From the NCBI RefSeq assembly GCF_003594885.1, contig NZ_QZEZ01000001.1:124001-188000 (forward strand): DNA of 64,000 bases, written 5' to 3'. Shown piece by piece: positions 47,588-51,993 of this stretch. The position numbers were made by a program, and so were the translations under genes. Below the pieces are notes generated by a model. It was not told the origin of the DNA, did no database searches, and saw only the letters and a program-made list of their open reading frames with translations. The stretch is from Vallicoccus soli (lineage in GTDB: Bacteria > Actinomycetota > Actinomycetes > Motilibacterales > Motilibacteraceae). Positions within the stretch are counted from its first letter, which is position 1. Each line of letters starts with the position of its first letter.

Positions 47588-47790
47588 ATGAGGGGCACCC
47601 TCAGGCAGCGGTGCCGGATGAGGGGCACCCTCAGGCAGGGGTGCCGGATGAGGGGCACCCCCAGGCAGCGGTGCCGGATGAGGGGCACCCTGAGGCAGCG
47701 GTGCCGGATGAGGGGCACCCTCAGCAGAGTCGAGTCTGCTGAGGGGCACCCTCAGGCGGGGAAGCCGCTCGAGGGGCACCCTCAGGCGGG
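47588..47790. repeat. Tandem array of a 30-bp unit containing two small hairpins
   Basis: A unit beginning ATGAGGGGCACCCTCAGG starts at 47588, 47618, 47648, 47678 and 47708 (exact 30-bp period), with diverged copies at 47740 and 47771. Each has the palindrome TGAGGG-GCA-CCCTCA and then GGCA-GCGG-TGCC. Variation between copies lies mainly in single bases of the stems. There are no spacers, so it is not CRISPR. It behaves like a REP-type or VNTR element between the GNAT and metallothionein-like genes. Confidence 0.85.
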
Positions 47791-47832: not shown

Positions 47833-48153
47833 TCAGGCGGCGTGCTTGCAGGTGCTGCAGGAGCAGTCGGCACAGGTGCAGTTCGCGCAGCTGTCGGAGC
47901 AGTGCGCGCAGGCGCAGGTGTTGTGGTTGCACGTGGCGCAGGTGCAGTCCGTGCACGAGCAGTTCGCGCACAGGTCGGTGCAGCCCTGGCACGAGCAGGT
48001 GGCGCACTCGTCGTAGTGGCCGTCGTGCTCGTGGTGGGCGTGGCCGTCGTGCAGGTAGTCGACGTGGTCCTCGTGGATCACGGCCTCGTGCCCGCAGGCG
48101 GGGCCGTGGGTGTGCCCGTGGGACTCGGCGGTGCGGTGGTCGGTGACCGTCAT
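47833..48153 (-). CDS. Metallothionein-like Cys/His-rich metal-binding protein
   Basis: 106 residues. Residues 1-48 are His-rich, with SHGHTHGPACGH and DYLHDGHAHHEHDGHYDE, a segment found as a short protein beside ArsR-type genes in actinomycetes. Residues 50-102 contain 19 Cys in repeats of C-x-C, C-x2-C and C-x3-C (CATCSCQGC, CANCSCTDCTCATC, CANCTCADCSCSTC). In total there are 20 Cys and 16 His. No signal peptide. Binding of Zn2+, Cd2+ or Cu+ in thiolate clusters is expected. An SmtB-type repressor lies directly upstream on the same strand. Confidence 0.85.
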   Translation of the reverse strand: MTVTDHRTAESHGHTHGPACGHEAVIHEDHVDYLHDGHAHHEHDGHYDECATCSCQGCTDLCANCSCTDCTCATCNHNTCACAHCSDSCANCTCADCSCSTCKHAA

Positions 48154-48231
48154 GCGGGGTTCCTCTCGTGCTCCCCGGCGCGGCGGGCGCCGGGGCAGGG
48201 CGGGGCGACGGCGGACCGGGCGTCCGTCGGC

Positions 48232-48266
48232 GGTGGTCGTGCTGGTGGTCGTGCGGGTGGTCGTGC
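48232..48266. repeat. Three 12-bp tandem copies, GGTGGTCGTGC
   Basis: Copies begin at 48232, 48244 and 48256. On the minus strand they read as His-Asp-His codons in one frame immediately after the ArsR stop, so they may be a frame-shifted remnant of a His-rich tail (see findings). Confidence 0.7.
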
Positions 48267-48272
48267 GCCCGG

Positions 48273-48602
48273 TCAGGTCGCGACGGGGCGGTCCTCGGCG
48301 GCGTGCTGCACCGCGTCGAGGACGATGTGCGCCACGTGCTCGTCCGCGAGCGCGTAGACGACCTCGCGGCCCTGCCGGTCGCCGCGCACGAGGTGCGCGG
48401 CGCGCAGGTGCCGCAGGTGCTGGCTCACCAGGGGCTGCGAGGCCCCCAGCGCGTCGACCAGCTCCTGGACCCGCCGCTCGGCCCGCGCGAGCTCCACGAC
48501 GATGCCCAGCCGGAGCGGGGTCGACAGCACCTTGAACAGCTCGGCGGCCGCCAGGAGGGCGGGGTCGCCCCCGGGGCGGCCGTCGGGCTGCTCGTCAGGC
48601 AC
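48273..48602 (-). CDS. ArsR/SmtB-family zinc-type repressor
   Basis: The GTG at 48602 gives 109 residues, with winged-helix segments FKVLSTPLRLGIVVEL and SQPLVSQHLRHLRAAHLV. The C-terminal helix carries Asp87, His89, His100 and Glu103 (D-x-H-x10-H-x2-E), the same spacing as the alpha-5 Zn2+ site of SmtB/CzrA. The alpha-3 ELCVCDL cysteine site is absent. This points to Zn2+ (possibly Co2+/Ni2+) sensing and derepression of the metallothionein-like gene. The promoter is leaderless type and overlaps a dyad operator. Confidence 0.9.
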   Translation of the reverse strand: MPDEQPDGRPGGDPALLAAAELFKVLSTPLRLGIVVELARAERRVQELVDALGASQPLVSQHLRHLRAAHLVRGDRQGREVVYALADEHVAHIVLDAVQHAAEDRPVAT

Positions 48603-48608
48603 CGCAGG

Positions 48609-48640
48609 ACCGTAGCACGTATAGCGACGTGTGCATATGT
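48609..48640 (-). promoter_or_regulatory. Leaderless promoter and SmtB-type operator
   Basis: On the minus strand TACGGT (48614 to 48609) begins 12 nt before the GTG at 48602. Directly upstream, 48617-48640, is an AT-rich dyad: arms A-C-x-T-A-T and A-T-A-x-G-T flank a central ACGT, 12-2-12-like in layout. Such AT content is striking in this GC background. It is the probable autoregulatory site. Confidence 0.6.
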
Positions 48641-48659
48641 CGATCTCCGCCGGCGGCAA

Positions 48660-49166
48660 TTACCGCACCGCGAGCGTGAAGAGCAGCAGCCCCGCCCCGT
48701 GCGTCTCGACCTCGAACTGGCCGGTCTCGTCGGCGGTGAGCTCCAGGGTGCCGGGCACGCCGGGCTCGAGGTCGAGCGACGGGCCGCCGAAGCCGTGCAC
48801 GTGCAGCTCGTCCTGCTCGTCGCTGGTCACGGTGATCCGCACGCGGTCGCCCTCGGCGATGTCGTACGTGCCCGTCGCCGGGCTGACCTCGCCGTCGGCG
48901 ATGGCCACCTCGATCTCCCGCGCCGCGGTGGCGTCGGGCGCCTCGGGCGCGGTCGTGCCGGGGGCGGGGACAGCGGCAGAGGGGCTGGCGGGCGGGCTGG
49001 CGGGCGGGCTGGCGGACGGGCTGGCGGACGCCGCGGGGGCGGCGCCCGACGTGCCCTCCTCGTCCGCCGACGCGCAGCCGGCGAGGCCGCCGGCGAGCGC
49101 GGCGAGCAGCAGGAGCGCGGCAGGGGCGCGGCGGGCGCGGGTCGTACGGGTCGTGCGCGTGGTCAT
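48660..49166 (-). CDS. Cupredoxin-like lipoprotein
   Basis: 168 residues; lipobox AGGLAGCA (Cys31), a Ser/Pro/Ala linker with tandem P-A-S-P repeats (about 44-65), then a beta-sandwich with VRITVTSDEQDELHVHGFGG and FEVETHGAGLLLFTLAVR. His in HVHG and in ETHG could be copper ligands, but the usual Cys and Met are absent, so type 1 copper is unlikely. The domain is common next to PepSY membrane proteins. Ends with TAA, rare here. Confidence 0.82.
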   Translation of the reverse strand: MTTRTTRTTRARRAPAALLLLAALAGGLAGCASADEEGTSGAAPAASASPSASPPASPPASPSAAVPAPGTTAPEAPDATAAREIEVAIADGEVSPATGTYDIAEGDRVRITVTSDEQDELHVHGFGGPSLDLEPGVPGTLELTADETGQFEVETHGAGLLLFTLAVR

Positions 49167-49268: not shown

Positions 49269-50846
49269 TCAGGCGCCGGCGGGCGTGCGCCGCCGCAGCC
49301 GGGCGCGCAGCCCGAGCAGCACGTCGACGGCGAGGAACGCGAGCAGGCTCACCCCGAGCAGGGGCAGGGCCCAGCCCACGGCGAGCGCGGCGAGGCCGAC
49401 GAGCGCGACCGCCCACGGCGGGGCCGAGCGCAGGGCGCCCCGCGGGTACGGCCGCCCCACCCCGCCGCGGCGGGACAGGTCGGGCCGGCGCTGCCACCAC
49501 ATCCGGTAGCCCCAGACGATCGTGCAGGCCAGGCCCAGGGCCAGGGCGAGCAGCACGAGCTGGTTGAGCAGGCCCCACGAGCCCATGTGCAGGTCGACGC
49601 CCCAGCGGGCCAGCTTGGCCATGAGCGGGTGGTCGGCGAAGTCGACCCGGTCCACGACGGTGCCGCTCGCGGGGTCCACCGACGCGGCGTCGACGTCGGT
49701 CGGGAAGCCGCGGTCGATCTCGGTGACGGTCCACGCCGCGCCCTCGCCGGCCGGCGGCTCCACCTCGACCTTGCCGGCGTCGATCCCGCCGTCGCGGGCG
49801 ACGGCCAGCGCGCGCTCGTAGTCCGAGGCCAGCGCCGCCGGGTGCACGTCGGCGCCGTGCCCCTCGTGCCCCGCGAGCCCGCCGTGGTCCGCGTGCTCGC
49901 CGGCCGGCTCGGAGGTGCCCTCGCTGCCGGGCAGCGCCGTGCTCACCGCGGGCGTCGACCAGCCCAGCGCGCTGCGGAGGTCGGAGACGCCGGCCCCGGC
50001 GTACGTCGACCACGTGAGGCCGGTCGCCGACAGCGCCAGGAGGCCGAGCGAGGTCCACGCGCCGACGGCGCCGTGGAAGCTGCGGGTGCGCCGCCGGCCC
50101 GAGGCCGACAGGTCGGGCAGCAGGAGCCGCCGGGCGCGCGCCCGGCGCCGCGCGCGCGCCGTCCACAGCACGAGGCCGCTGAGGGCGAGCACCCACAGCC
50201 ACGAGGCGGCGAGCTCGCTGTAGAGGCGTCCGGGCTCGCCGAGGTGCAGGTGCCGGTGCAGCTGGCTGACCCAGGTGCGCAGCGGGAGGACGCCGCTCGT
50301 GCCGTACACGGTGAGCTCGCCGCGCACCTCGCCCGTCCCGGGGTCGACGAAGACGGCCCGGGTCTCGGACTCCGCGAGGTCGCCGACGGCGAACATGACG
50401 CGGGTCGTGTCGGAGGGCGTCGGCGCGGGGCGCACCGCGACGAGGTCCTCGGCGTCGTGCACGGCGAACGCGGCTTCGACCTGCTGGCCGAGCGGCAGCT
50501 GCGTCGGCGACGGGTCGACGCGCAGCTCGTCGCGGTAGACGACCTGCTCGAGCTGCGGCGTGGCGGCGTAGAGGGCGCCGCTGAGCGCCGCGACGAGCAG
50601 GAACGGGCCGACGAGGACGCCGGCGTAGAAGTGCCAGCGCAGCAGCAGCGGGCGCCACCAGCCGGCACGGGGGGCGCTGGGGCCCTCCGGCGAGGTGCGG
50701 GGGCGGACGAGGGCGGTACGGGCGGCGCCGTCGGTGCGGCCGCCGGTGCGGCTGTCGGGGCCGGTGCGGGCGTCGGTCGGCGGGGTGGTCGGCGGGGCGG
50801 TCTGCGGGGCGGCGCCGGGCACGGCGGGGCCTGGGGGTGGGTTCAC
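49269..50846 (-). CDS. PepSY-domain membrane protein
   Basis: 525 residues with four membrane helices; the first follows LLLRWHFYAGVLVGPFLLVAALSGALYA, a PepSY-associated helix. Two PepSY-type periplasmic regions (about 100-165 and 300-420) lie between. The periplasmic His-rich stretch HADHGGLAGHEGHGADVH (about 295-315) suggests metal binding. Relatives act in ferric-siderophore or copper reduction. The long Pro/Thr-rich cytoplasmic N terminus is low complexity. Operon-like with the cupredoxin lipoprotein and the membrane protein at 50908. Confidence 0.88.
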   Translation of the reverse strand: MNPPPGPAVPGAAPQTAPPTTPPTDARTGPDSRTGGRTDGAARTALVRPRTSPEGPSAPRAGWWRPLLLRWHFYAGVLVGPFLLVAALSGALYAATPQLEQVVYRDELRVDPSPTQLPLGQQVEAAFAVHDAEDLVAVRPAPTPSDTTRVMFAVGDLAESETRAVFVDPGTGEVRGELTVYGTSGVLPLRTWVSQLHRHLHLGEPGRLYSELAASWLWVLALSGLVLWTARARRRARARRLLLPDLSASGRRRTRSFHGAVGAWTSLGLLALSATGLTWSTYAGAGVSDLRSALGWSTPAVSTALPGSEGTSEPAGEHADHGGLAGHEGHGADVHPAALASDYERALAVARDGGIDAGKVEVEPPAGEGAAWTVTEIDRGFPTDVDAASVDPASGTVVDRVDFADHPLMAKLARWGVDLHMGSWGLLNQLVLLALALGLACTIVWGYRMWWQRRPDLSRRGGVGRPYPRGALRSAPPWAVALVGLAALAVGWALPLLGVSLLAFLAVDVLLGLRARLRRRTPAGA

Positions 50847-50907
50847 GGGGGTCCGTCCTGGGACGCGGGGTGTCGGGGGCACGGCGGGGCCGGCCCCGCA
50901 CCCCGTC

Positions 50908-51480
50908 TCAGCGGACGGCGGCGGCGGCGACGGCCCGGCGGTGCGCCGGGGGGCCGCGACGGGCGGCGTCGAGCACGAGCAGGCGCGGGCGCAGCGGCAC
51001 GGGCCGCGCGGCCGGTCGCGCCAGCGGGGCGCGGGCGGGCAGCGCCCGGGCCACGAGCAGGCGCACGAGCGGGCGCAGCAGCTCCAGCAGGGCGGCGGCG
51101 GCCCGCTCGCCCGCGCGGAGCACGACGGCCGCGGCGAGCGTCGCGACGACGTGGGCGAGGCCCATCGCGTCCGGCGGCAGCACGGGGTCGGCGGCGGGCA
51201 GCGCGCCGTGCGCGTGCCCGGCGGCGCCGGCCGCGTGCAGGAGCACGTGCACCGCCACCTGCCCGAGGGCCAGCAGCGCCAGCACCTCGGCGGCACCGAC
51301 CGGGCGGCGCGTGGCGGGCCACCAGAGCGCCGCGACGAGCGCCGCGGACAGCAGGGCGGCGAGGGCGTCCGGCGGGTGGCCGGAGGCCAGGACGTGCGCG
51401 AGCACGCCCAGCGCCGTCGTCGTGCCGGCCGCGACGAGGCAGCGCAGGGCGCGCAGCGCACCCCGTGCCGTCGTCGTCAC
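50908..51480 (-). CDS. Small integral membrane protein
   Basis: 190 residues, three to five hydrophobic helices with H-V-L-L-H-A-A-G-A-A-G-H near the middle, otherwise unfamiliar. GTG start; minus-strand TAGGGT at 51493-51488 lies 13 nt upstream without a Shine-Dalgarno, so leaderless. It heads the PepSY/cupredoxin run. The function is unknown; similar proteins sit next to PepSY genes in other actinomycetes. Confidence 0.75.
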   Translation of the reverse strand: MTTTARGALRALRCLVAAGTTTALGVLAHVLASGHPPDALAALLSAALVAALWWPATRRPVGAAEVLALLALGQVAVHVLLHAAGAAGHAHGALPAADPVLPPDAMGLAHVVATLAAAVVLRAGERAAAALLELLRPLVRLLVARALPARAPLARPAARPVPLRPRLLVLDAARRGPPAHRRAVAAAAVR

Positions 51481-51633: not shown

Positions 51634-51924
51634 ATGTCGACCGTCCAGGAGCTGCCCCCGGTCCAGGAGTGCTCCGTCGGCAGCTGCTCGTACAACGCGG
51701 ACGCCGCCTGCCACGCGGGCGCGATCACCGTCGGTGGCGAGCACGCCCACTGCGGCACCTTCGTGGAGATCCCGCTCAAGGGCGGTCTCGACCGGGTCGG
51801 CCGCGTCGGGGCCTGCCACCGGCAGGAGTGCCGGCACAACGACGACCTCGAGTGCGGCGCGCCGTCGGTGCGCGTGGGGCCGGCGCGCGACGTCGCCGAC
51901 TGCCTGACCTTCGAGCCGCGCTGA
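51634..51924 (+). CDS. DUF1540 Cys-rich protein
   Basis: 96 residues; two DUF1540-like halves, VQECSVGSCSYNADAACHAG (10-29) and the later GACHRQECRHNDDLECGAP, each with Cys in C-x4-C-x7-C spacing. The family is small, presumed to bind metal, and often stress-regulated. ATG after GGAGGAG. No neighbour in the same direction. The exact role is unknown. Confidence 0.85.
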   Translation: MSTVQELPPVQECSVGSCSYNADAACHAGAITVGGEHAHCGTFVEIPLKGGLDRVGRVGACHRQECRHNDDLECGAPSVRVGPARDVADCLTFEPR

Positions 51925-51993
51925 CGGCCGGGGCGCGACGAGCCCGGGCTGCCCTCGGCGTCGGCCGACCTGCCGCCGGGCCGGCGTGACCGG

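Follow-up and report, generated by a model that had tools for sequence, protein, structure and literature searches.

A candidate zinc-responsive ArsR-metallothionein gene pair in Vallicoccus soli and its actinobacterial relatives

The gene pair and its promoter

The window analysed here, a 64,000-nucleotide stretch of the Vallicoccus soli genome, carries on its minus strand a gene for an ArsR/SmtB-family metalloregulator (48273-48602, 109 aa) and, downstream of it on the same strand, a gene for a metallothionein (47833-48153, 106 aa), with a gap of ~120 bp between the two where most relatives have coupled genes. The metallothionein ORF starts with ATG and encodes 20 Cys, 16 His and a single Lys, with 19 of the Cys lying in the tail from C50 onward, as the first-pass annotation had described. 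Residues 1-49 (48007-48153, minus strand) form a His-rich module of the pattern HTHGPxCGH...HYDE, while the tail consists of a unit of nine Cys and one His repeated in tandem. In a regular-expression parse both repeat 1 (residues 53-77; 47923-47997, minus strand), preceded by C50, and repeat 2 (residues 80-104; 47842-47916, minus strand) read CxCxxCxxxCxxCxCxxCxCxxCxH, and a DNA tandem repeat with a period of 81 bp, spanning 47842-48001, mirrors the two units. The small size, the Cys content, the CxC/CxxC motifs and a spacing that is fixed across the family are features of metallothioneins as a functional class, and neither Pfam nor NCBIfam holds a model that matches the protein. AlphaFold returned no confident fold (mean pLDDT of 48), an outcome to be expected of a metal-free metallothionein and one that lends no structural support to this reading. 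Just 3′ of the gene, an array of 30-bp repeats (47588-47787) has the near-palindromic core TGAGGGGCACCCTCA, which occurs in 81 copies in the genome, frequently in arrays, compared with none for the reversed control; this dispersed repeat is possibly terminator-like.

The regulator contains an ArsR winged-helix domain (PF01022, 4.7e-12; NF033788, 8.5e-25, above the cut-off), with the solved structures nearest to it being those of the ArsR-family regulator 8qkf (1.8e-26), NmtR, SmtB, and CzrA. The alpha-5 zinc site D-x-H-x10-H-x2-E/H is present as DEHVAHIVLDAVQHAAE, with exactly the spacing first noticed in the window, D-E-H-x10-H-x2-E. Among the 37 loci encoding the fused protein, homology places an ArsR gene at 27, and the D-x-H-x10-H-x2-E pattern is found in every one of these; at 22 loci arsR lies directly upstream of the metallothionein gene, mostly overlapping its start or a few bases away. 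Of the ten loci without an ArsR hit, L001 starts at a contig end and some have short flanks, where a missing gene means little. The alpha-3N Cys of SmtB (Cys61) has no counterpart in the window ArsR, which reads RRVQEL against LCVGDL in SmtB, and a Cys occupies this position in the ArsR of only some relatives (RCVHEL). The alpha-3N site is dispensable for sensing by SmtB, and the alpha-5 sites of ArsR proteins may respond to cadmium or cobalt as well as zinc. Translation of arsR likely starts at the GTG at 48602 rather than the TTG at 48659, since the candidate operator would then stay upstream of the gene. Directly upstream of arsR on the minus strand lie genes for a lipoprotein-like protein (48660-49166), with a weak cupredoxin match below the cut-off, and a PepSY_TM protein (49269-51461), whose products are possibly involved in copper or iron handling.

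Ahead of arsR, a palindromic candidate operator, GTATAGCGACGTGTGCATAT, spans 48619-48638, agreeing with the 48617-48640 proposed earlier from the window itself. The 20-bp palindromic element was derived from the family promoters, in which its motif score is 537 compared with 258-287 in shuffled sequences, a generous margin given that the controls are single-base shuffles and the sequences are related. With a leave-one-out matrix built from the relatives and free of the window, 48619-48638 ranks first of 63,981 positions at 13.8 bits, with the next non-overlapping site reaching 4.7 bits. The element is also present in metallothionein promoters without a directly upstream ArsR, for instance that of L018, which scores 12.2 bits although excluded from training, and held-out sites also occur near genes for stand-alone His proteins (L049, L051, and L055). 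On the strength of these sequences, ArsR is predicted to bind at 48619-48638 and to be released from it. No convincing operator was seen at the two CDF and two P-type ATPase genes of the window genome, and a whole-genome search with a degenerate consensus performed no better than its control (11 compared with 24 matches per strand), so that the consensus by itself is powerless genome-wide. A weaker operator-like site of 6.5 bits (1477-1496 of locus L060; C1:452597-452616 of the window genome) lies directly before another ArsR-like gene of that genome, and is perhaps the operator of that gene.

Distribution and conservation of the fused protein

A genome scan across bacteria yielded 24 fused loci and a sample of the same class 13 in 394 genomes, the window genome included, giving a set of 37 sequences, or 35 once two duplicates are dropped. 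The search for proteins with both segments, suggested in the first-pass annotation, therefore returned 36 further homologous loci (34 non-duplicate) of equal architecture, which span at least nine actinobacterial families with a constant Cys spacing; the Cys tail, initially judged an unusual fusion, belongs to a conserved family. Its members include Rothia, Kutzneria, Crossiella, Lentzea, Nocardia, Nocardioides, Cutibacterium, Actinomyces, Alloscardovia, and Actinopolymorpha, among other genera. Outside the class, one more distant match, at 50% identity, came from a 296-genome sample of the phylum. The gene is missing from the four searched genomes of the same family as the host, and the locus has no match in the plasmid collection, the phage collection or the viral contigs, where low-complexity filtering may mask some. 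The tree of the fused family is poorly resolved, too poorly for transfer between families to be shown.

In an alignment of 24 rows all Cys of repeat 1 are invariant and those of repeat 2 nearly so, with the gaps reflecting a form with one repeat; the regular-expression parse finds a single Cys repeat in two relatives, L022 and L040. The partial locus L001, in which Phe replaces one Cys, was left out of this alignment. All ten sequence pairs tested gave dN/dS below 1, in the His half and the Cys half alike, indicating purifying selection. Outside the Cys positions, the two repeats of one protein share a mean identity of 0.47, compared with 0.44-0.49 for same-position repeats of different proteins. 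Homogenisation of the repeats as a general rule was not seen, and high identity (0.71-0.86) is confined to a few proteins, such as those of Cutibacterium. From these sequence comparisons, the ArsR-metallothionein pair appears as a conserved actinobacterial unit and not a one-off fusion.

The His-rich module and linkage to zinc genes

Elsewhere in actinobacteria the His-rich module makes up a protein by itself, often in tandem, or closes a permease at its C-terminus. The stand-alone form had been anticipated, although as an actinobacterial segment, and copies are also found in Neisseria. The sole other His module of the window genome is the tail of the zinc permease ZnuB, with znuB situated between znuC and zur. 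Several fused loci are themselves close to zinc genes: at five Pseudonocardiaceae loci the metallothionein gene lies ~1.3-1.9 kb from an smtB-zur pair, at L037 zur adjoins it divergently, and the gene order is znuA-znuC-znuB-arsR-metallothionein-zur at L016 and znuC-znuB-metallothionein-zur at L038. ZnuC and Zur at L016 and L038 are named from their similarity to the proteins of the window genome, and znuB at both loci and znuA at L016 from reading the translations; similarity to ZnuC is by itself no proof of a zinc ABC transporter. At both L016 and L038, znuB stops without a His tail, and the module may have passed from permease to metallothionein or the reverse. No ArsR-type operator was seen at the metallothionein gene of L038, within its znu-zur cluster, so regulation differs among loci. 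Near the metallothionein gene in the window, at about 51639-51930 on the plus strand, lies a gene for a small protein rich in Cys, in which two stretches match DUF1540 (PF07561), a putative further metal binder.

Predicted function and its alternatives

The gene pair, the metal-site residues, the conserved operator-like palindrome, the repeats, their conservation, and the linkage to zinc genes together suggest that this is probably a metallothionein system induced by excess zinc, which buffers zinc and also cadmium. A dimer of the ArsR/SmtB-type protein on 48619-48638 would repress the arsR-metallothionein operon until a rise in cytosolic zinc or cadmium fills the two alpha-5 sites, each formed by D, H, H, and E across the dimer, whereupon the metal-loaded repressor would leave the DNA and the metallothionein would be produced. 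The two repeats of nine Cys and one His would then hold zinc tightly in metal-thiolate clusters, at about three divalent ions per repeat if they behave like M3Cys9 beta domains, with the His module binding additional zinc more weakly and exchanging it quickly. The metallothionein would serve as a zinc buffer and store, not as an exporter. The identity of the metal, the stoichiometry, and the division of labour between the two halves are what we infer from these features.

The layout resembles that of SmtB-SmtA of Synechococcus, in which an ArsR repressor with an equal alpha-5 ligand pattern adjoins a metallothionein and an operator-like palindrome lies in the promoter. The earlier description of the locus as SmtB-SmtA-like holds for the zinc-type site of the regulator, but not for the alpha-3N Cys of SmtB, which the window repressor lacks, nor for the metallothionein, which carries a His module in addition and has its 9-Cys unit twice. 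Homology to SmtA is rejected, with PF02069, the SmtA family, unmatched at the locus at E-values up to 10 while Synechococcus elongatus was among the matched controls. Function and layout appear to be those of SmtB-SmtA, whereas the protein family and modular architecture differ.

Likeness extends to the zinc-excess ArsR sensor of the mycobacterial smtB-zur operons, where SmtB leaves the DNA upon zinc excess (PMC7174638), and the ArsR proteins beside zur near the Pseudonocardiaceae metallothioneins are 50-56% identical to the window ArsR. In M. smegmatis the main target of SmtB is the exporter ZitA, with no metallothionein mentioned in the text of that study (PMC7174638), whereas in the window the metallothionein is itself the partner of ArsR, with zur at another place in the genome. 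Our literature searches found no paper on the exact fused family; however, Schmidt et al. 2010 predicted actinobacterial metallothioneins and metallohistins in silico, as cited in PMC4531530, and since the list in that work lay outside the reach of these searches, priority for the family is not claimed. The mycobacterial copper metallothionein MymT is likewise an actinobacterial Cys-rich metal-binding protein, of ~53 aa and related to copper, but as generally described has neither such a Cys repeat nor a His module.

Sharing of the His module with the ZnuB tail, and the position of the metallothionein within the znu-zur clusters of L016 and L038, could instead point to a role in zinc scarcity, with the protein acting as a reserve in which the His module would pass zinc between the Cys repeats and the ZnuABC importer. 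This is unlikely, as at most loci the gene is coupled to an ArsR repressor of the excess type and an operator-like site is present, and expression is therefore predicted at high and not low zinc, although the arrangement at L038 and the link to ZnuB may point to some storage role in scarcity. Of similarly low probability is a two-compartment zinc carrier, in which the His module would dock to, or exchange with, the tail of the ZnuB importer while the Cys repeats store the metal. Less likely still is a metallothionein chiefly for copper, or for soft metals in general, with control by ArsR incidental: the dense CxC/CxxC motifs and Lys-poor tail would suit Cu(I), and the cupredoxin-like and PepSY_TM neighbours could be copper-related, but the regulator carries a zinc-type alpha-5 site, zur or znu genes adjoin several relatives, and the His module is common to ZnuB. 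A chance fusion, frameshift or sequencing artefact, to which the low-complexity look of the tail and nothing else found would point, is rejected as wholly improbable, since the identical frame, Cys spacing, and repeat architecture in 36 other loci and the dN/dS values below 1 mark the Cys region as a real frame.

The family delimited here is a widespread actinobacterial one, found in Cutibacterium, Rothia, Actinomyces, and others and unmodelled in Pfam and NCBIfam, and as it brings its own regulator and candidate operator, zinc storage in these bacteria can readily be tested on it. Through the His module held in common with the ZnuB zinc permease, a possible connection between the uptake and the storage of zinc also becomes testable; the two-compartment carrier, if true, would couple these processes, with zinc being taken from, or returned to, the importer tail.
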